Shown in pieces: positions 6,439-30,264 of a stretch of 56,301 bases of DNA. The notes under the pieces were generated by a model. That model worked only from the letters and a program-made list of their open reading frames with translations. It had not been told where the DNA came from and searched no databases. The stretch comes from a virus. The position numbers and the translations under genes are program-made. The stretch covers positions 1 through 56,301 of the IMG/VR virus record IMGVR_UViG_3300043409_000379; one strand, written 5' to 3'. Each line of letters begins with the position of its first letter. Position 1 is the stretch's first letter.

Positions 6439-6463
6439 TAAGTCATTGAATATATTGATATAA
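6439..6463 (+). repeat. 25-bp repeat, direct copy 1
   Basis: Begins TAAGTCATTGAATATATTGA and is identical over 25 bases to 6478-6502. The copies start 39 bases apart, close to four helical turns. Confidence 0.9.
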
Positions 6464-6477
6464 CTGAAATAAAACTG

Positions 6478-6502
6478 TAAGTCATTGAATATATTGATAT
6501 AA
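6478..6502 (+). repeat. 25-bp repeat, direct copy 2
   Basis: Identical to 6439-6463. It is followed by ATCCATATAGGGG and an A/T-only stretch that could unwind easily. Confidence 0.9.
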
Positions 6503-6574: not shown

Positions 6575-6598
6575 TATATCAATATATTCAATGACTTA
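6575..6598 (-). repeat. 24-bp repeat, inverted copy
   Basis: The reverse complement matches 24 bases of the direct copies, so the AT-rich segment 6503-6574 is flanked by inverted copies that could form a large hairpin or a looped protein complex. Confidence 0.9.
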
Positions 6599-8234: not shown

Positions 8235-8376
8235 AACGCTTCTGGCAGAGGACGGAGGTCAAAGGTCGGAGATCAATCAACCTCCCTCCTGTGACCATCC
8301 ACCTATCCCTTCCCACCACCTCCCTTTACCTTTGCATCAACGACAAAGTAATCCTGTCATTAAAGAAAGAAATCCG
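8235..8376. other. Short non-coding gap with strand-skewed sequence
   Basis: About 140 bases before the DnaA-like gene. The left part is purine-rich and carries GGAGGTCAAAGGTCGGAGATC-type sequence (about 8254-8275) related to 2257-2280 and 20599-20614. The right part (about 8279-8333) is nearly all pyrimidine. No clear promoter is seen. Confidence 0.5.
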
Positions 8377-8844
8377 ATGACACTCCAGTTTAACACCAAG
8401 GAAGAATTAACCACCCACTACACCAGTCTTCGGATGAAGTTCCGAAACCCTCCCGAAACAGTCCGACCAATTCTAAGGGTCGTGGACGGCCCTCCATCCA
8501 TTTCTGGTAGGGTAGGTGCCGACAGCCCCGTCTTGGATGACAGCGCACCCTCCCTGCTCGACCTAGAGATACGCCGCCGCCACGAACTCCTCGACGGTTG
8601 CATTCTCTCCCGCCCTCGTAAACTTGTCGTGCTTCCTGTCTTGGAAGAGATCGGCATGGGATGGAAGCATTTGTTCAACGGAACGAGGAAGCCGGATATT
8701 GTCAGAAAGCGTTGGTTGGTATTCCGCGCACTTCGGGATGACGGCATGAGTTTACCGCAGATTGGTCGGGCTTGCGGTAACATGGACCATTCGACCGTTT
8801 TCCACGGCCTTAAGGGCTTAGAAAAAAGCCTATCCTGCTCTTAA
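8377..8844 (+). CDS. DnaA domain IV-like DNA-binding protein
   Basis: A 155-residue protein from the ATG at 8377, chosen because AAGAAAG precedes it; the frame opens at 8332. The C-terminal 60 residues read RKRWLVFRALRDDGMS, then LPQIGRACGNMDHSTVFHGL, matching the DnaA domain IV signature (SLP.IG..FG.RDHSTV.H). No AAA+ domain is present; the N-terminal 80 residues are unrelated to DnaA. It may bind DnaA-box-like sites to start phage replication, or compete with host DnaA. It lies in the early operon about 1.6 kb from the repeat array. Confidence 0.82.
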   Translation: MTLQFNTKEELTTHYTSLRMKFRNPPETVRPILRVVDGPPSISGRVGADSPVLDDSAPSLLDLEIRRRHELLDGCILSRPRKLVVLPVLEEIGMGWKHLFNGTRKPDIVRKRWLVFRALRDDGMSLPQIGRACGNMDHSTVFHGLKGLEKSLSCS

Positions 8845-8875
8845 GTCCACATTGTAACTGAAAAGGAAATTGAAG

Positions 8876-9298
8876 ATGATTGTAGAAAATATTCTAACGG
8901 AAAGACAAGAGACGCATGGCACCTATCAGGAAGTTGCCAGTATCGCGCAGTTGTTCCGCGAGATCATGCGTGGAACGGACGGTTGGCAAAGGATGAACGA
9001 CGCACAGCGTGAGGCCTTGGACAGCATGGCGTCGAAGTTTGGTCGCCTTGGTTCTGGCAACCCGCACTTCCGCGATCATTGGGACGATCTGGCAGGGTAC
9101 GCTGCGCTTGCATCCATGCACTGCGATAGCAACAACTGTACGGTGCAACAGGACATCGCCAAGGTTGTCGAGCAGATCAAGGTCGGAGGAGAGCCGACAG
9201 GTGTTGACGAAGACGGAGAGAGGTTTCCGGAAGTCGCAACGCTTCCGAAAACTGGCAAGAAGGGTTTCTTTAGTGCCAAGAAAGATGAAGGAGAATAG
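8876..9298 (+). CDS. DUF6378-like conserved phage protein
   Basis: A 140-residue protein from the ATG at 8876, preferred over the TTG at 8870. It reads [21 protein letters not shown], then [29 protein letters not shown], the pattern of the phage family I know as DUF6378 (RQ..HG..... and GNP...DHW.D.AGYA). Members are common beside replication genes; the function is unknown. Confidence 0.75.
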
Positions 9299-9300
9299 AC

Positions 9301-9756
9301 ATGGGACTCAAGAAACTTGAAGAGCGAAACAATCAAATCTTTGCACAAAGAAAGCATGGACTTACCTACCGAGAACTAGCCAAAGAATTTAATCTAAGCG
9401 GCTTCCGTGTTTCAAGTATATGCGCCCAAGAACAACGCAGGAAAGACAAAAGAGTAGTCCACGATGAGGTAATTGCATCAAGTAAACCGGAACTTGCCGA
9501 TCTCAACCCCGTGTTATTTAGGAAGGTTGACGAGTTGGAGTGGTCGGTTCGCACAGGAAATTGTCTTGCGAATGACAACATCATCTATATTTGCGACTTA
9601 GTTCTTCAATCAGCACCGGACCTTCTACGTATCCCAAACCTTGGTCTCAAGGGTATAGATGAGATCAAGGAAGTTCTGGCAACGATGGGGCTTCATCTCA
9701 CCTTGAAGAAGATGACAAAATGGGGACACAGGGAATTGATTACTTATTATGCTTAA
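9301..9756 (+). CDS. HTH plus RNA polymerase alpha C-terminal domain protein
   Basis: A 151-residue protein. Residues 5-45 form a helix-turn-helix ([20 protein letters not shown]). Residues 67-135 match the RpoA C-terminal domain: [20 protein letters not shown], then [23 protein letters not shown]. Positions equal to E. coli R265, N268, C269, G296, K298 and E302 are kept (R84, N87, C88, G115, K117, E121); the S299 position is Gly118. No alpha N-terminal assembly domain exists, so it cannot enter polymerase as a normal subunit. It could bind UP elements or activators. The GLHL ending is alphaproteobacterial. Confidence 0.88.
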
Positions 9757-9792
9757 CGACAGAAAACACATCAACAAGAAAGGGCTAAGGCA

Positions 9793-10320
9793 ATGTCAAG
9801 TTTTATAACTGTATATAACATTATCATCCATCTTCCACCGAGCCATTCCAATGACAAATCCCCCAAGGTCCGAGTAGCGGACAGCTTTGGCAATGAGCAG
9901 ATGGCGAAGGATGCCTTGTTTGATCTGGTGGTGTCTGATTTTGATGCGGCACAAAAAGAAGGCACGGACTTGATTAACAAGCGTTCGTTCTCCCTCCAAA
10001 AGATGCTTGTTCATACGCCACAAGACATTTCTAAGGAGTTACTTAAAGAGCAGAAATACTCCTTCAATCCGGCATTGTTTGAAAAGGTTGAGGAACTAGA
10101 ATTGTCCGTTCGTTCTGTGAACTGCCTCAAAGAGGGTAATATTGCCCTTATTGGAGACCTCATCCAATGGTCGGGAGCAGAACTGCTACGACTTCCATAC
10201 TTTGGTCGCAAAAGTCTTAATGAGATCAATGAAGTTCTAGCAACGATGGGGCTTCATCTTGGCATGGAAGTGAAGGGGTGGGAACGTCAGCCTTCCCCAT
10301 ATCGGAGAGATCATGATTAG
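9793..10320 (+). CDS. Second RNA polymerase alpha C-terminal domain protein
   Basis: A 175-residue protein. Residues 92-160 read [20 protein letters not shown], then [20 protein letters not shown] and GMEVKGW, very close to alphaproteobacterial RpoA. All DNA-contacting positions known from E. coli are kept (R107, N110, C111, G138, K140, S141, E144). Residues 1-90 are unrelated to the alpha N-terminal domain and match no family I know. It follows the other alpha C-terminal protein by 36 bases. Host-like conservation suggests later acquisition than its neighbour. Confidence 0.88.
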
Positions 10321-10411
10321 TCCTGTCGGACTTGCAATCATGCAATCGTTGGCAGCGGTGGTATTTATCACCGCTGCTGTCATCCTCATCCACTCCATCT
10401 GGAGAAAGTAA
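10313..10411 (+). CDS. Micro-membrane protein, 32 residues
   Basis: The ATG at 10313 overlaps the end of the upstream gene and the TAA is immediately followed by the ATG of the sigma region 4 gene. The product has one hydrophobic segment ([13 protein letters not shown]-like, residues about 12-26) and ends HSIWRK, so it is a single-span, positive-inside peptide. Its last codons (TGGAGAAAG) also form the ribosome site of the next gene. Tight packing supports a real gene; function unknown. Confidence 0.65.
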
Positions 10412-10873
10412 ATGTCTGTCAACAAGGAAACCGGTGACCCAAGAAGTTTAATTTACTCTTTGGAAAATCTTGCGATTGATCCGTTTCAAAGGTTGGTGGA
10501 CAAAGATGCGACTGCTTTTGTCAGGGATAAAATTCTCTCTAACTTAGCACCCCGTCAGAGGCGTATCCTCATACTGAGATTTGGATTATCTGACGGGGGA
10601 CAGGAGTTATCTGTCAGTGAATTAACGGAGATGTACGGAGTTACTCGCGAGAGAATTAGACAGATAATAAACTTTTCAATTCTTAAATTAGTTATGGTTA
10701 TCGTAGGGAACAAAGATTATAGGGCCGCGTTAAATTCTTTTTATAATACAAACATAGAAGAACGAGACATTAAGTTATCCTATAAAAAATCAAACACGTC
10801 ACATGCCTTGTGGCAACATACTGGATTAAATATTGAAAAAGAATACAAGCGTGACAATCATTGGAGAAAGTAA
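10412..10873 (+). CDS. Sigma-70 region 4-like protein
   Basis: A 153-residue protein. Residues 36-96 match sigma-70 region 4: SNLAPRQRRILILRFGL, then LSVSELTEMYGVTRERIRQI and INFSILKL; VTRERIRQI is the -35 recognition helix of housekeeping sigma factors. Region 2, needed for -10 melting, is absent, so it cannot be a full sigma factor. It could occupy the beta-flap or -35 site and redirect or block host holoenzyme. It follows two alpha C-terminal domain genes. Codon use is AT-rich relative to the upstream genes (many TTA, AAA). The C-terminal 55 residues are basic and unassigned. Confidence 0.88.
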   Translation: MSVNKETGDPRSLIYSLENLAIDPFQRLVDKDATAFVRDKILSNLAPRQRRILILRFGLSDGGQELSVSELTEMYGVTRERIRQIINFSILKLVMVIVGNKDYRAALNSFYNTNIEERDIKLSYKKSNTSHALWQHTGLNIEKEYKRDNHWRK

Positions 10874-11068
10874 ATGCCCGATATCACGATGTGCAACGGC
10901 GAGACATGCACCCTGTCAGAAACCTGTTTCCGCGCACCACAGAGCGGGACAGAGCCGAACGGTCGCCACCAGTCGTGGTTCATGGAGGAGCCGTACTGGC
11001 GGGATGGCAGAGGGCCGACCGTCTGTGATTACTATTGGAAGATTGACCCGTCGAAGGAGAAAGAGTGA
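10874..11068 (+). CDS. Small cysteine-containing conserved phage protein
   Basis: A 64-residue protein directly abutting the upstream stop. Cysteines at 7, 12, 18 and 51 (MCNGETCTLSETCFR ... VCDYY) could bind a metal. The MPDITMC.....C....CFR pattern is familiar from small phage proteins of unknown role. The 3' end carries the AAGGAGAAAGAGTGATG junction. Confidence 0.72.
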   Translation: MPDITMCNGETCTLSETCFRAPQSGTEPNGRHQSWFMEEPYWRDGRGPTVCDYYWKIDPSKEKE

Positions 11069-22683: not shown

Positions 22684-25600
22684 TCAGTCCTCAAGTTTTG
22701 TTGCACGGGCAGTTTCCGTCGCATACTTCTGGATTTTTAAGTAGTCTTCCCGAATGCTCTTATTCAAGTCTTGGATCTCGGCACGACGCTTTTCAGGAGT
22801 CATGCTCTGGTCTTTTGCTATCTGGGCGCGATACGCCTCGCGCTTGTGAATTGTATTTAACATGTAATTTATATTCTGCGCCCTCTGCTTGACGACATCC
22901 AGCGGGGTAATGTTAAACCCGAACAGTCTTGCGGCAGTAGCAAGGGTATCAGGCTTCGCCATCCCACGCTTGTCTGTTCCCGTCCCGTCCGAGAACAGGC
23001 TGTTGTAGATACGCGGAATCGCACCACCGCTGTTGTCCATGTTGTTCAGGTCAAAACTTAACATCGGAGGAAGGGCTTGGTTCCAAGCATACGAAAGACC
23101 AGAAAAGAACTGATTCATTCCAGTATCCAACGGGTTTACAACCTGCTTGTCAGTGAACGGGTCACGTCCTGTCGCCATGACAGCAATCGCTGTGATGAGT
23201 GGTCCACCGGGAACAAACTGTCCGCCGAGTTGCTTCAAACCCTTTACAGGCTCTCCGTACCACGCGGCTGTCACGACAGGATCGGTGAATGCCGCCCAAG
23301 GGAAGAAGTACCCAAGATCGACCATCTGGATTTTTCCGTTGGAGTCCTTCCAAGGAAGGATATACATCGACCCCTTGTCACGCATATAGTCTGCCGCAGT
23401 TTTACGAGCAGCCTCGTAATCCTCATCGTCCCAATCCAACTGTGCCATTGCAATCTGTGGGAGGGCATAGGACAGCATAATGTATGGAGCAAACCGAAGT
23501 GGATGCTCTCTTGCTGTCTGGATCAGCTTTGGCAGAACCTTGTAGTAGTATGTAATGAACGGAAGACCGAGGGGAGCGTTCCGAAGCCATCTGATATTCG
23601 GGTTCACCATCGTGTAATCAAACAGCGAGTCATGTGCAGCGTCCACAGACTCGGATACCGTCTTGCCGTTCTTCCGGCTCTCAATAAAGAGGGCCATCTT
23701 GAACAGAACTTCCATGTTCTGATAGAACTCGCCCGGCTTTGACAGAAGGTACTTCGCTGCAATACGGCCCGTAGCCATCGCTCCGAAGAAGTTGTTCTTG
23801 TCTCCGCGAGCCTGATACTGCTTCATAGTGTTGAACATTATTTTAAGTTCGGCAGCCGCCATCGTTCCACCTTGGATGCCGTACTCCTGTGCGTCCTTCC
23901 AATACTGATCTTTGCTCGACCATGATTTTGCTGCCGCTGACAATGCGCTTGGCAACTTGTGCAATGGAATTCCACCAAATACGTTCAATGCCACAATGTT
24001 CGAGATGACGTTACGAACCTGAGATGGGACGTTAAAAGTTACTTTTCCAAGTTTCCAAACCTTGTTTGCATTGACCAACAGACTTTGTTCGTCACCAAGA
24101 ATTTTACCAATCATCGACTGGTTCGTGTTCGGAACCATTGCAAAAGTACCAACAAGATCGTCGTAGATACCCTCTTGAACAACAGCACCGCGCAACACAC
24201 CGTATCGTGGCGTATCTGGCAAACGCTGATACCCGTCTGGAATCTTTGACTCTGGTCCATATCCCGGAATTTTATCCAGCAACTTCTGCATACTTGCAAT
24301 CTCCTTGCGGACGATTGCAGCGCGGGCGGGATCTGTCTGCTCTGCCAGAGGAAGAGTGACCGTCTTCATCAACTTGATCTCGCTTGCCATCCAGAACGGG
24401 GATACCATCTTCCCCCTCCAGTTGATCACACTGTCGTCGAGTACCCACTTGACGCCCGATGTGGTGCCAATCTCGGCAAAGTATTGGGCCAGAGCCATGT
24501 CTCTGGCAGGACGGGCGATTGCAACATACGCCAAGAACGCAGGGTTCTTGATTTCACCCAGCAGTTCGCGCTCCTCGACAGAAAGCTGATCATCACGGAG
24601 TTTCAAATACTCCTGCTTGCTCAGTCCCATGTTAGGGGTCTTCATTCCCCGTTCAGTCGCCTCATAGTACAAATAAAGACGCGGGACGTACTGATCGTAG
24701 TTTTTATCAAGCGATTCCTGCGTCATGAATCCGGCATCAACAAGCCGCTTACCTTGCTTATTGATCTCTTCCTTTGCACGGACAGCAGCCTTGCGGACTT
24801 CCGGATCGACAATCATCGACGGAGATGCGCCGCGTGTCGTCAGGAACTTGTAGACATTCCCGTTGTGACCGCTGTCAGCCTTTGATCCCTTTGCAATGTC
24901 GGCAGCAATCTTCTGTCCAAGTTCGTTTGCAGTTCCGGTCGTGCCAAGAAGCCTGTTGCGGAACGAACGAAGCAGTGGCGCGTTGTCGATGAAAGCCCAC
25001 GGATCGAAGAATTCCTTCACCGTGTCCGTGATATTGCTCCATCTGGTAGAGTTCACCTGCGCCCCCGCTGCATTCGGAGCGTTTGCAACTTTTGGTGGAA
25101 CCTTTACACGAGAGTACCTAATATCAGGGTTAGTTTCATCAAACGTACCTATGTTACCCGTGGCAGATTTAACCTGTGTTGGTTTGAATACAACAAACTC
25201 TTTTGTTCCTTCCGCATCTTTGCTATCAAGAATGACACCATCATACCCAGCATCAATCAACTGTTTACGGATGTTCTCAGCAATCTCTGTGTCACCGGCT
25301 TCAATGGCTTCTTTAATCGCAGTCTTTTCTGTTTGCGTTGCAAGGTATGGGTTCTTCATACTTAAGTGAAGAGGCATGACATTCGGTGCGTTGCCTCTCT
25401 TCATACTAGCGTACATGCTTGCAAGAGAGGTGTTATTAGTAAAATAAAACCCACGACCAAGCCACCCAACGTCTTTCTTGTTGGGCTGATAGTCTCTGAA
25501 CTCAGAAAAGACATCAGCTGTGCCATGGTACACGACGTTAGGAACATCCGGATGATTACCTTTTTGGAAGGCAGCAAGGTTCTCTGACCTTACACCCTCG

Positions 25601-28600
25601 TCAGCAATATATTCTTTTCTAAACCTAGCCCGAGAGAACTCAAAGTCCGATCTTCCAGCGTATGTTGGATTTTTGGCATACACCAACGGCCCAATCTGTA
25701 AAACTTCCTCTGCTGCAACAACAGGCTTCATATCACCACGGGTATAGAAGAACGAATGCCGTGTCGGGTCCATCCCCACCTGCACCCATGCGGGATTGAT
25801 ATGAACCTGTTTCGCCTTGGCGTATGCTTCCTTTGAAGTAATTGGTTTGAAACCACCCCTCATGGTTGCGTATGGTGCTTTACCTGCACCCTTAGCTGTG
25901 GCAAGGGCCGCACTTTCTGTTACGCTAAATGTGACATCAGTTGCCGCGCTTACGCTTTCATAGACAGTTGGTTTTTTGGTTTGAGTACCCGAACTTCCAT
26001 CATGGATAGCGTTAACCCAAGCATTTTTACCATCCTCTCTGGCATAAGCAGGGATATCCAATCGCAGTTTAACGGGATCGCCTTCTTTGTAGTACTGGTC
26101 TGCTAAACCATACTTGTCCTGTTTATTCTCATATAAGGCGTTTATCGCTTGTTCAGAGGTTGCTGGAACAGGGATATTTTTTATGTCATACAACTCGACA
26201 GGTTTTCTCTTACGAACCAACGCATCCCATTGATCCGGCGTAATCTCCCCATCCTTTAACTTAGCTACGTTCTCTTCCAAAACAGGATCACGTTTTAAGA
26301 TATCCTTATGGGGCATCCCTATTCGTGAGAAGTTCTTAGCACGGGAGAATTCTGTTGACCTTGCCGTTCCCGGCTTGAACTCATTGAAAACACTTTTAAT
26401 GGCAGTTGGGTCTTTCAATATAACAACAAGGCTGTCATTGGTTGCTATACCCGTTTTCCGGTTTGGTGGAATCCAAGCGTCATACCCCTGACTACGTAGA
26501 GTATCAAAAAATCTAGATTGCGCTTCCTTGTAGTTATCCTTCTTCGCTTCTGGCGGCAAGTTACCTCTATAGGGATTTTCTACCCTTAAGAATACAGGTA
26601 TGACACGACTTGCCGTATTTTTCAGTTGGGGACTAAAATCTTTTTTAGAGACTAGATCGTAGTACTCGGCAAGTGTGAGTTTTTTAACACCTTGGCTATC
26701 ATTATTTTCAGCATACTTAGATGCCTCTTCTGGATCAGTGGTAAACCAAGTACCATGGCGTCCAACCTTAAACGACTTGAAAATAAAATCCTTTGACGTT
26801 CCGGTGTAGAACACAAGCGGCTTGCCTGTATTAACATCCGTAATTGCGGCCCCTCTTGACCACGCATCATATTCCTCGTCCCTAGTACGATTGACAGGCT
26901 TATCGCGATAAACCCTTTCTTTTTTTGCAGGAACTATACTTTCGAACTCTGCTAAAAGATCATCAGGAAGATCCCAATCAATCACCCCCTCCGCCCTGTT
27001 TATGGTGTAAGGGTCGCGAGAATACTCCGGCCCAGAAGTCTTCTGACCAGTATTAAGACCACGCTGTGCAACACCTGCCGACACACCAGCAAACGCTTCT
27101 TCAACAGTTGTGAAGCCCTGACCACTTAGCATATTGCCAATGGCTTCTCTGACAGACTTTACAAAATTTACAAAACGTACAAAAGCCGACCCGAGCCCAC
27201 CAATCTGGACGTTGTTCTGTCTGGCCTGATCAAGAAGACCAAACACATATGCCTTGAGTTCGCGTTCCTTCTGGAACTGGCTCGTCTCTTCTGCAACAGC
27301 AGCGTCGATATCACGCGACATCAACGTATCATACAGTGATTCCTTGCCGTCCACCATCGGGTTGCGGGTGTTCTTCAACACACGCAGAAGATTTGGATTG
27401 ATCTCGTCAATCTTCGTCGCGCCCTTGAATGCAGCGTCGATAATCCGGCCCGTTGCACGATCAGAAGCAGCAAAGGCGTCCTCCAACGAATGCCAGATCT
27501 CATGCGATGTTGTTTCCAGCGGATTGTAGTCCGGGTTCAACGACAGTTCGATAAGCTGGCGGTACGCTGACCGGGTTCCTCCGACTTCCACGTCTGCCAG
27601 AAAATCACCGGGATTCTCCGGATCTGGGAATGTACCAAACAAGTTGGCAGCAAACTTGATCTTCTGCGCTCCTGTCACGCCGCTCAACAGGCGCATGACA
27701 GTTTCTGACATCTTGAACGCTTGAAGAACCTGATCGACAGATATTTTTCTGTCAGCAATAGCCCGCTTCAAAGCTACTGCCAGATTCCTGCCCTGATCGG
27801 TATCGTCACCTGCCAGCTTCTTGATGGCGTCGTCGATCCGCTGCATTGCAGCAGCTTTGTCTTCCGCCGTAATCGTCTTGACGGGCTCAACAACAGGGGT
27901 CGGAGGTTGTTGGGCAGCCGTCTTCGCTGCACGGGCCTTCGCCTTGGCCTTCTTGGACTTCCGTTTTCCACCAGCACGGGAATATTCTTTATCAATTTCA
28001 GAAATAAATATGTTTTCGAGGCTAGGTTCTCTGGGATTGAAAGGGATTTTCTTTGCCGTTGCCTCCGCCTTTGTTTTCAAAGCGGCAGCATATGTCGCTT
28101 GTGGATCAAGCGTCGGGTCGTTTATGATCTTATCATAGGCAAAGGTCATCGCTTCATTGTCGAGCGGCATCTTGTCAGTGAATACAAGACGGTTCAAATC
28201 ATCCGCAGCCGTTCGACGTGCAGTATCTTTCCGCTCACCACTCACCTTTTCGTCATTAACAATCGCCTTTTCTACCGCAACAACAGGGTCGTCCTCCCGT
28301 CCTTCTACCAGACGGCGGACAGCATCATCGTAGGCTTCATCGGAATAGTTCTGATATCCGGCATCTGCAATCGCGCCATCGACGGCACGTTCGATATCCC
28401 CTATTAGAGCCTCTTTTGTCTGACCTTTTCCTGCAAACGCTGCGAGTTTTTCTGGGTCGTACACACCGTTCGTAGGAAGATCGGCAGTTCTACCAGCAGA
28501 GATGTCTTGCGCCAACAGGGTACGGAATTTAGCAACGTCTTCTTTGGTGACAGCCCCGCCTTGTTGATCAACAGGTCCAAGCCATCCAGCATTCTTGGCC

Positions 28601-30264
28601 ATTTCAACCATGAATTCTTCGGGCTTTTGATCTCTTCCAGACTGCATAGCAGCGGTGGTTGGAGCAATGTATTGAGTGGTTATCGTTCCGCGACTACCCC
28701 TAATAACATCTCTTCCATACTCACCCGCATCCATTTTACCAATACGGATACCACCCTTGCTGGCGACCCAATCCTTCAAACGCGCCACGCCGCGCATAGA
28801 AGGTTTAGAAGATAAACCCTCAATCCTCGACACAGGCTCTTTGTTGGTATCTTTCAGAAAATCATCAAGTTTGTTTGGCGGCGCACCCATGGGTATGGCA
28901 ATTTCTGGAGTGAGCGGCGCAGCGGCACCCTCCGCCCTGAGTTCAACAGGACGACCTTCCCGTGTAATCGGGCCAGTCTTTACAGTCGGGAGTATTCCAG
29001 TGTCAGCCATCGTTTGACGCTGCTCTTGCAAACGGATTTCTTCTTCCGTCTGTGGAACATACGGCTCCTCAATCGCACGACCCATAACGCCCGGACGATT
29101 GGCTGCTGTCGGAGCCCCAATCGAAGGAGGGAGGTCGGCGGACGTGATGGCCTCGGTCGGAGGAACTCCGCCCTCCAGCACAGGCTGTTTGACCGTCAAC
29201 CTTGGACGTGAAGGCGCACCGGAAACTTCTTCTGTCGCTGCTGCCGCTTCTGCCGCAGCAGGTGGCGGAGGAGGGAGGGCGGTCTTCTGCGAACCCTTGA
29301 GAATATCTGTCAGGTCTTGTTCTGTCGGGGTACGTGCCGCTTCGATATCAGCACGAAGTCTTTCGTAATCGGTCAGAGGACGTGGGCCTTCGGGGCGTCT
29401 ACCAAATGCACCAGATGTCGCGCCACCAGCAACGCCGCCGAGAATACCTTCTGCGATTGCTTGCTTACCGCTGATGTCCAAACCAGCCTCTGTCCCGAGA
29501 GACGATCCGGTCTGTTCAATAATTGACTGGAGGAGTTCTGTCCCGCCTTCTCCAATCAGACCTTCCCCCATGCGCTTCATCAGAGGAGCAGCAGCCTGTC
29601 CACCACCGGGGAGATATTTAGCACCGATAGCGTTTAACGCACCGCTGCCAGCAGCAGTGAGTGCCGCCGCTCCAATGTCGGAAGCGTTAGGAGTATCACG
29701 ACCTTCTTTCTGAGCGCGTTCTTGTGCAACAGGGCCAAGGATTTGAAGTGCTTCAAACAAGAATGGACCGAGGAAAGCACCCGCAATAGCACCCGCAGCA
29801 GTACCAACAATAGGCACAACAGAACCCACCGCCATGCCAATCGCTGCACCAGCCGCTCTTGTTCCAATAGCACCAGCAATCTGACCAGATTGTTCTGCGA
29901 CAGCAGCAGGAAGCGAGCCAATACCAAACCCGCCGAGGGTAACGTCCCCTTCTTGTGGGGTAATAAATCGACCCGCCGCCGACTCATATCCTTCTGGGGT
30001 AATGTATTCAGCAGCACTTTTCAGTGCTGCACCCGTTCCTGTCAGGCCGAGAGTTTCTGCTGTCGTGCCGAGGGCTCCGAGCGGCTGCGCCAAACCAGCT
30101 TGGAGAGAACCCATGATGGATTGTTCTTTTGGTTTGTTTGCTGCTTGCCATTTTGGAAACAGATCGGTTGCAACATAGGCGATGGCATCATCTAAAGTAG
30201 CACCTTCTGGAGCATCTACTCTAAATTTTACATTATTCGGAGCAGTTACTTCAAATACTGGCAT
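22684..30264 (-). CDS. Giant polyvalent virion protein with ART-like and metallopeptidase-like domains
   Basis: 2526 residues. Residues 1-40 (MPVFEVTAPN...APEGATLDDA) match a start common in phage ejection proteins. Residues about 110-175 are Gly/Ala-rich and hydrophobic. HEIWH (921-925) is an HExxH motif. Residues about 1140-1295 are a first ADP-ribosyltransferase-like fold (VFYTGTS, GTWFTT, LVVILKDPTAIKS) with Thr/Phe in place of His/Tyr. Residues about 1575-1718 are a second with intact VVYHGT (H1580), GRGFYF (Y1607) and KEFVVFKPTQVKS. Residues about 2065-2300 resemble the C-terminal domain of polyvalent proteins (NVPSQVRNVISNIVALNVFG). Such proteins are thought to enter the cell with phage DNA. 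It takes 13% of the genome. Confidence 0.88.
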   Translation of the reverse strand: MPVFEVTAPNNVKFRVDAPEGATLDDAIAYVATDLFPKWQAANKPKEQSIMGSLQAGLAQPLGALGTTAETLGLTGTGAALKSAAEYITPEGYESAAGRFITPQEGDVTLGGFGIGSLPAAVAEQSGQIAGAIGTRAAGAAIGMAVGSVVPIVGTAAGAIAGAFLGPFLFEALQILGPVAQERAQKEGRDTPNASDIGAAALTAAGSGALNAIGAKYLPGGGQAAAPLMKRMGEGLIGEGGTELLQSIIEQTGSSLGTEAGLDISGKQAIAEGILGGVAGGATSGAFGRRPEGPRPLTDYERLRADIEAARTPTEQDLTDILKGSQKTALPPPPPAAAEAAAATEEVSGAPSRPRLTVKQPVLEGGVPPTEAITSADLPPSIGAPTAANRPGVMGRAIEEPYVPQTEEEIRLQEQRQTMADTGILPTVKTGPITREGRPVELRAEGAAAPLTPEIAIPMGAPPNKLDDFLKDTNKEPVSRIEGLSSKPSMRGVARLKDWVASKGGIRIGKMDAGEYGRDVIRGSRGTITTQYIAPTTAAMQSGRDQKPEEFMVEMAKNAGWLGPVDQQGGAVTKEDVAKFRTLLAQDISAGRTADLPTNGVYDPEKLAAFAGKGQTKEALIGDIERAVDGAIADAGYQNYSDEAYDDAVRRLVEGREDDPVVAVEKAIVNDEKVSGERKDTARRTAADDLNRLVFTDKMPLDNEAMTFAYDKIINDPTLDPQATYAAALKTKAEATAKKIPFNPREPSLENIFISEIDKEYSRAGGKRKSKKAKAKARAAKTAAQQPPTPVVEPVKTITAEDKAAAMQRIDDAIKKLAGDDTDQGRNLAVALKRAIADRKISVDQVLQAFKMSETVMRLLSGVTGAQKIKFAANLFGTFPDPENPGDFLADVEVGGTRSAYRQLIELSLNPDYNPLETTSHEIWHSLEDAFAASDRATGRIIDAAFKGATKIDEINPNLLRVLKNTRNPMVDGKESLYDTLMSRDIDAAVAEETSQFQKERELKAYVFGLLDQARQNNVQIGGLGSAFVRFVNFVKSVREAIGNMLSGQGFTTVEEAFAGVSAGVAQRGLNTGQKTSGPEYSRDPYTINRAEGVIDWDLPDDLLAEFESIVPAKKERVYRDKPVNRTRDEEYDAWSRGAAITDVNTGKPLVFYTGTSKDFIFKSFKVGRHGTWFTTDPEEASKYAENNDSQGVKKLTLAEYYDLVSKKDFSPQLKNTASRVIPVFLRVENPYRGNLPPEAKKDNYKEAQSRFFDTLRSQGYDAWIPPNRKTGIATNDSLVVILKDPTAIKSVFNEFKPGTARSTEFSRAKNFSRIGMPHKDILKRDPVLEENVAKLKDGEITPDQWDALVRKRKPVELYDIKNIPVPATSEQAINALYENKQDKYGLADQYYKEGDPVKLRLDIPAYAREDGKNAWVNAIHDGSSGTQTKKPTVYESVSAATDVTFSVTESAALATAKGAGKAPYATMRGGFKPITSKEAYAKAKQVHINPAWVQVGMDPTRHSFFYTRGDMKPVVAAEEVLQIGPLVYAKNPTYAGRSDFEFSRARFRKEYIADEGVRSENLAAFQKGNHPDVPNVVYHGTADVFSEFRDYQPNKKDVGWLGRGFYFTNNTSLASMYASMKRGNAPNVMPLHLSMKNPYLATQTEKTAIKEAIEAGDTEIAENIRKQLIDAGYDGVILDSKDAEGTKEFVVFKPTQVKSATGNIGTFDETNPDIRYSRVKVPPKVANAPNAAGAQVNSTRWSNITDTVKEFFDPWAFIDNAPLLRSFRNRLLGTTGTANELGQKIAADIAKGSKADSGHNGNVYKFLTTRGASPSMIVDPEVRKAAVRAKEEINKQGKRLVDAGFMTQESLDKNYDQYVPRLYLYYEATERGMKTPNMGLSKQEYLKLRDDQLSVEERELLGEIKNPAFLAYVAIARPARDMALAQYFAEIGTTSGVKWVLDDSVINWRGKMVSPFWMASEIKLMKTVTLPLAEQTDPARAAIVRKEIASMQKLLDKIPGYGPESKIPDGYQRLPDTPRYGVLRGAVVQEGIYDDLVGTFAMVPNTNQSMIGKILGDEQSLLVNANKVWKLGKVTFNVPSQVRNVISNIVALNVFGGIPLHKLPSALSAAAKSWSSKDQYWKDAQEYGIQGGTMAAAELKIMFNTMKQYQARGDKNNFFGAMATGRIAAKYLLSKPGEFYQNMEVLFKMALFIESRKNGKTVSESVDAAHDSLFDYTMVNPNIRWLRNAPLGLPFITYYYKVLPKLIQTAREHPLRFAPYIMLSYALPQIAMAQLDWDDEDYEAARKTAADYMRDKGSMYILPWKDSNGKIQMVDLGYFFPWAAFTDPVVTAAWYGEPVKGLKQLGGQFVPGGPLITAIAVMATGRDPFTDKQVVNPLDTGMNQFFSGLSYAWNQALPPMLSFDLNNMDNSGGAIPRIYNSLFSDGTGTDKRGMAKPDTLATAARLFGFNITPLDVVKQRAQNINYMLNTIHKREAYRAQIAKDQSMTPEKRRAEIQDLNKSIREDYLKIQKYATETARATKLED

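Follow-up and report, generated by a model that had tools for sequence, protein, structure and literature searches.

A set of promoter-recognition modules related to host RNA polymerase has been identified in a marine phage, comprising two C-terminal domains of the RNA polymerase alpha subunit (alphaCTD) and a sigma factor region 4 (sigma4) without region 2, encoded by three genes (genes 1, 2 and 3; proteins P1, P2 and P3) in a slot whose content varies among close relatives. These genes are tentatively explained as accessory modulators of host RNA polymerase built from captured promoter-recognition modules, a reading that we prefer with slightly less than even confidence. They look like swappable add-ons, gained and lost among closely related phages, rather than core expression machinery. 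The window, i.e., the whole stretch of DNA that was analyzed, is the viral IMG/VR record IMGVR_UViG_3300043409_000379 (positions 1 to 56,301; 56,301 nucleotides). All three open reading frames described in the initial annotation were recovered where it had placed them, and its assignment of two alphaCTDs and a sigma region 4 without region 2 was borne out by Pfam, PDB phmmer, and NCBIfam; its gene list had missed a 32-aa peptide gene between genes 2 and 3. The features are listed in Table 1.

Table 1. Features of the variable slot and its borders (window positions)
Feature	Positions	Strand	Basis
DUF6378 gene, upstream border of variable slot	8870..9298	+	Pfam, sister comparison
Gene 1 (P1), 151 aa: sigma4-like HTH, then alphaCTD	9301..9756	+	ORF, Pfam, whole-record sigma4 search, PDB phmmer
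P1 HTH (residues 3-47), sigma70 region-4-like, at or just under curated cut-off	9307..9441	+	Pfam, whole-record search, AlphaFold, Foldseek
P1 recognition-helix positions 34-39	9400..9417	+	column permutation, four-homologue alignment
P1 alphaCTD (residues 68-141): R265 N268 C269 G296 K298 G299 E302	9502..9723	+	PDB phmmer, residue table
Gene 2 (P2), 175 aa: orphan N-domain and complete alphaCTD	9793..10320	+	ORF, Pfam, PDB phmmer
P2 N-domain (residues 1-90), predicted beta-beta-alpha-beta, not alphaNTD	9793..10062	+	hhalign, AlphaFold, Foldseek, relative search
P2 alphaCTD (residues 91-164), seven DNA-contact residues and E261 kept	10063..10284	+	PDB phmmer, residue table
Peptide gene, 32 codons/aa, hydrophobic, likely single-TM	10313..10411	+	sister comparison
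GGAGAAAGTAAATG direct repeat copy 1, start of gene 3 (ribosome-binding site, stop, start)	10401..10414	+	repeat search
Gene 3 (P3), 153 aa: sigma region 4 without region 2	10412..10873	+	ORF, Pfam, PDB phmmer, region 2 search
P3 sigma4 domain (residues 39-93), -35-reading helix VTRERIRQI intact	10526..10690	+	PDB phmmer alignments
GGAGAAAGTAAATG copy 2, end of gene 3	10863..10876	+	repeat search
64-aa gene, downstream border of variable slot	10874..11068	+	sister comparison

The phage encodes a family-A DNA polymerase, a UvrD-like helicase, a primase, a portal protein, and a terminase, and its DNA polymerase shares 49-55% identity with the enzymes of HTVC023P-type pelagiphages, in which neither alphaCTD nor sigma4 was found when both were searched for. 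The GC content of the window is about 50%, and genes 1, 2, and 3 (43, 45, and 37%, respectively) lie under the genome mean. Judging from gene order, the three genes probably belong to an early-expressed region. Sigma region 2 (PF04542) had no match in gene 3 or anywhere in the record, while controls matched. The earlier claim that the phage has no RNA polymerase held for the multisubunit type, as the whole-record search detected no beta domain; a T7-type enzyme was likewise not found in the record, by a model that also matched no control genome.

In E. coli, alphaCTD positions 265, 268, 269, 296, 298, 299, and 302 contact DNA, and R265 is the key UP-element residue. The alphaCTD of gene 2 (PF03118, E=1.7e-20 in Pfam; E=1.5e-28 in PDB phmmer) carries RNCGKSE at these positions, which equals the host set, and that of gene 1 (E=2.6e-16 and 4.8e-23, respectively) carries RNCGKGE; 9zum_A and 7ye1_A were the best alpha matches of both. 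The initial annotation was thus correct that Gly replaces Ser at position 299 in the first domain and that the other contact residues are kept in both. In the gene 1 homologues of three related contigs (L007, L013, and L022), V298 and C299 are found instead (pattern RN[CY]GVCE), i.e., K298/S299 is lost in three of the four family members, and the gene 1 family appears to be drifting off the canonical alphaCTD surface, with part of the DNA surface lost. Both domains are nearest to alphaproteobacterial RpoA; based on alphaCTD identity (at most 78% between P2 and the sampled alphaproteobacterial domains, and no higher to any sampled genome), the host may be assigned no more finely than "alphaproteobacterial". 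An origin of gene 2 by recent tandem duplication of gene 1 was not supported, as the two fall in separate supported clades; a single viral alphaCTD clade was not rejected by the AU test (p=0.31, 74 columns).

Pfam detected no alphaNTD in genes 1-3. Although phmmer matches of P2 to some alpha subunits extended into its N-domain, the possibility that this domain is an alphaNTD remnant was ruled out by hhalign against 77 RpoA proteins (probability 0.1%). Outside the clade, no relatives were found for the N-domain of either P1 or P2. AlphaFold models, which were built from 4-row alignments, were poor outside the HTH of gene 1, and Foldseek searches with them yielded nothing significant.

Profile searches, which had been proposed as a check on the domain calls, matched all three genes, and only marginally in the case of the gene 1 HTH. 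This domain scored 21.8 bits against PF04545 (sigma70_r4) in hmmscan and 23.5 bits in the whole-record sigma4 search (24.1 counting its neighbours in frame), at a cut-off of 24.1, and the homologue in L013 exceeded the cut-off with 26.3 bits. Comparison with sigma region 4 by hhalign gave E=0.0014 and a probability of 17.5%. AlphaFold predicted a helical HTH (pLDDT 71-85), for which Foldseek listed the SigF chains of 8jzt (rmsd 0.9-1.0 A over 45 columns, with an E value that was not significant). Weak similarity to PHROG late activators was also observed (E=3e-4), and the match to Mor (PF08765; 15.7 bits) was under the cut-off of 24.9. Among four homologues, the HTH scaffold is kept (e.g., EERN, RK.G.T, NLS, and IC), and positions 34-39 form the most variable 6-column window of the domain (0 of 20,000 column permutations as extreme). 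It seems that the DNA target of gene 1 may shift among relatives, which is the pattern expected if sites differ, with few sequences (n=4) behind it.

Gene 3 matched PF04545 well above the cut-off (E=8.5e-13, 48 bits), and PDB phmmer aligned it with region 4 of SigA/RpoD (E=3e-8). Its match to the NCBIfam model of the MzaA sigma factor of the MZA defence system (NF041931) covered region 4 only and reached 47 bits at a cut-off of 800. In sigma70, a helix of the VTRERIRQI type reads the -35 element, and the charged residues of the following patch (EAKALRKLR in E. coli) contact alphaCTD and activators. P3 keeps the helix, but its corresponding patch, INFSILKLV, is mostly hydrophobic and has lost these charged residues. 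Whole-gene omega values of 0.32-0.52 for gene 1, 0.24-0.67 for gene 2, and 0.29 for gene 3 suggest that all three may be under purifying selection.

The three genes co-occur only in the window record. Gene 2 alone is present in L003, L004, and L005 and genes 1 and 3 in L007, and the DNA polymerases of these four sisters are 98.6-98.9% identical to that of the window; among more distant relatives, gene 2 occurs in L006 and gene 1 in L013 and L022. A stable three-gene operon, as implied by the initial annotation, was rejected since sisters hold subsets: co-occurrence was confirmed for genes 1 and 3 in L007, whereas four relatives have gene 2 without them, and two carry gene 1 but lack gene 3. 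One or more alphaCTD genes occur in each of the eight contigs that have both slot borders (the window counted). The peptide gene follows the alphaCTD gene(s), and gene 3 comes next where it is present. The peptide gene is present across sisters and is more diverged (61%) in relatives without alphaCTD. In such relatives, the slot contains a conserved 98-aa protein (L019 5865-6161, with equivalents in L016, L017, L020, L021, and L023-L025), which resembles a winged HTH, has no Pfam match, and gives weak sub-cut-off sigma4 matches. A stand-alone DnaA C-terminal DNA-binding domain without the AAA+ motor is encoded a short way upstream of the slot (window 8332-8844, +; Bac_DnaA_C, 2e-8), representing another host DNA-reading module without its engine; its counterparts in L006, L013, L015, and L022 show only 27-41% identity.

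This comparison, which covers a handful of contigs that are mostly fragments, includes one near-full-length sister (L005, 49.6 kb) with gene 2 only. Intergenic DNA, taken as a stand-in for promoters, is 96.6% identical between L005 and the window (coding DNA, 93.3%), and a 395-bp region upstream of early-type genes is 96.3% identical. Because L005 keeps this DNA without genes 1 and 3, the comparison argues that these two genes would not be needed to read the phage's own promoters; it bears on genes 1 and 3 only, as gene 2 is present in both phages. A promoter consensus scan found 32 sites versus 18 expected, which says nothing on P1-P3.

Short repeats may provide a basis for this mosaicism. 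The 14-bp GGAGAAAGTAAATG pair brackets gene 3 as a cassette, and similar 15-17-mers occur at nearby junctions. In addition, AAGGAGAAAGAGTGATG recurs at gene junctions (window 11054, 11146, 11361, and 11678, +; as a 15-mer at eight places in L021), so that many small proteins end in -KEKE. The AAGGAGAAAGAGTGATG repeats may drive cassette shuffling of the region, and junction repeats in general could make the exchange of cassettes straightforward.

A profile-guided search of IMG/VR returned 113 contigs with alphaCTD genes, 80 of which were fetched. The 59 distinct sequences analyzed show that such stand-alone genes are widespread among uncultivated viruses. The encoded proteins are short and have varied partner domains, none being a full RpoA. 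Both R265 and G296 are present in all 59 sequences; G296 was partly imposed by the search patterns, whereas R265 lies outside the peptide patterns and its retention is therefore not explained by the search. Two contigs encode sigma4 and alphaCTD in one protein, with both domains above Pfam cut-offs: sigma4 followed by alphaCTD in L059, and DUF6891, alphaCTD, and sigma4 in L091. These fusions come from unrelated contigs and have opposite domain orders, which lends some support to the earlier idea of sigma4 and alphaCTD as a working pair. Among 51 viral alphaCTD proteins (the fusions being 2/51), sigma4 is the sole Pfam family other than HhH that occurs in at least two, and neither fusion had a match covering 80% in 50,697 phage records (for L091, the alphaCTD-sigma4 part was searched). 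PF04545 exceeded its cut-off in 10 of 49 records searched and in none of the nine without alphaCTD, which are too few records, and a claim of sigma4 enrichment near alphaCTD was dropped. Two alphaCTD genes in one contig were not found among 46 other viral contigs searched. One 236-aa viral protein contains two tandem alphaCTDs (L080 4575-5285), and in the related contigs L103, L106, and L107, a protein of 230 aa that carries a strong sigma4 domain (L103 1669-2361, 1.5e-18 in L103; L106 and L107 1324-2016) sits 2.4-2.8 kb upstream of a stand-alone alphaCTD gene.

According to the preferred explanation, the modules would trace to alphaproteobacterial RNA polymerase and sit in a recombination-prone cassette slot of the early-type region. 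P2, with a predicted DNA-binding-competent alphaCTD that is cut off from polymerase and joined to a phage-specific N-domain, would most likely occupy A/T-rich UP-type DNA or compete with host alphaCTD for sigma4 and activator contacts. P3, a free sigma4 with a consensus -35 helix and without sigma2, would most likely occupy -35 DNA and/or the beta-flap and thereby compete with host sigma4, and P1, in which an alphaCTD follows an HTH whose specificity changes, would most likely be a site-specific regulator. Jointly or singly, they would redistribute host RNA polymerase among promoters and would form an optional layer rather than the phage's obligatory means of promoter recognition. The elements of this scheme that the analysis establishes are the identity of the domains, their alphaproteobacterial affinity, the residues retained, the patchy distribution among relatives, and the conservation of intergenic DNA; binding to DNA or polymerase, timing, and direction of effect are inferred. 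A sharper form, doubtful but not far-fetched, is that free alphaCTD and sigma4 act as decoys, occupying UP elements, -35 elements, or activators and silencing strong host promoters such as those of rRNA. Since the DNA-contact residues are kept without alphaNTD or sigma2, the modules could bind but not carry the enzyme, and the lone DnaA domain in the same region is likewise engineless; optional presence also suits a host-directed function. However, the variable recognition helix of gene 1 fits poorly to a fixed host -35 target, and isolated alphaCTD is in general a weak DNA binder.

The main idea of the initial annotation was that all three proteins together could retarget the polymerase to phage promoters. 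In such a model, P1-P3 would jointly recruit host RNA polymerase via UP and -35 contacts as a split sigma4 and alphaCTD surrogate, which we regard as unlikely. The two unrelated sigma4-alphaCTD fusions, the recurrence of sigma4 among the partners of viral alphaCTDs, the co-occurrence of genes 1 and 3 in L007, and the lack of a detected polymerase in the record are consistent with it, but it is weakened by the near-full-length sister, whose intergenic DNA is almost the same although it lacks genes 1 and 3, by the substitution of gene 2 and genes 1 and 3 for each other among sisters, by the missing residues for alphaCTD contact in gene 3, and by the rarity of the fusions. Quite improbable is that the three proteins are ordinary small DNA-binding regulators that reuse HhH and HTH folds and have no particular connection with RNA polymerase: such domains are generic and the gene 1 HTH also weakly matches other activator families, yet PDB and NCBIfam matches are specifically to RpoA alphaCTD and sigma region 4 rather than generic HhH/HTH, and R265 is invariant across viral copies. 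Overall, a host- or competitor-directed effect is somewhat favored by the optional presence of the genes and by intergenic DNA that has hardly changed, and a positive promoter-reading unit by the fusions. A broader and rather speculative proposal, which we consider unlikely, is that phages have on several occasions combined sigma region 4 and alphaCTD into a minimal unit that recognizes promoters without a polymerase, whether within one polypeptide (L059, L091, and the gene 1 type) or encoded separately (gene 1 or gene 2, together with gene 3). The modules of this unit would read adjacent -35 and UP DNA with interchangeable specificity and override host promoter choice.

Single phage alphaCTD annotations and single-HTH sigma factors are already known. 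A stand-alone phage alphaCTD gene, ORF40, was described in Erythrobacter phage vB_EliS-L02 (PMC9127768), and the "RNA polymerase subunit alpha" of Bacillus phage vB_BmeM-Goe8 is an annotated phage alphaCTD gene. These resemble the window genes in being short phage proteins with an alphaCTD and not full RpoA, as do about 50 further distinct sequences in IMG/VR contigs; the difference is that the window slot holds two alphaCTD genes and sigma4. Compared with host RpoA, P2 residues 91-164 are up to 78% identical to the alphaproteobacterial alphaCTD and share the seven contact residues, whereas the place of alphaNTD is taken by an HTH in gene 1 and by an unrelated N-domain in gene 2. Minimal single-HTH sigma factors and gp33 of jumbo and T4-type phages also contain a region-4-like HTH without region 2, and engagement of the beta-flap has been proposed for them (PMC7824862). 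Gene 3 is similar in this respect, but its match is to region 4 of cellular sigma factors, the -35 helix included. In T4, Alt/ModA and AsiA/MotA act on alphaCTD R265 and sigma4 (PMC2988021); the same two polymerase elements are involved, but T4 modifies or remodels the host copies, whereas the window phage encodes copies of the domains. The AsiA, MotA, and gp33 families were absent among the Pfam and PHROG matches of genes 1-3. In the literature searched, with most subscription papers falling outside it, only single phage alphaCTDs were found, and no sigma4 and alphaCTD set, cassette behaviour, or fusions. Known phage strategies alter or inhibit alphaCTD and sigma4; encoding swappable or fused copies of these domains would reach that point of control in another way. 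Direct tests with purified RNA polymerase are feasible for the viral alphaCTDs and the fusions, which are small, and the sister phages are natural with/without pairs.

Two further observations were made in the window. A 2526-aa polyvalent-type protein (22684-30264, -) contains two ART-PolyVal ADP-ribosyltransferase domains (25141-25542 and 26380-26829; 2.1e-37), which were not detected in the homologous protein of the sister L005. Since T4 Alt/ModA ADP-ribosylate alpha R265 (PMC2988021), phage-encoded alphaCTDs could serve as substrates or sponges for such enzymes. Furthermore, three perfect copies of AAGTCATTGAATATATTGATATA (6440-6462, +; 6479-6501, +; 6575-6597, -), where none is expected by chance, flank an A/T-rich stretch within the 395-bp region, and at least two copies are retained in L003, L005, and L007. 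This array appears iteron-like and is perhaps an origin or control region.
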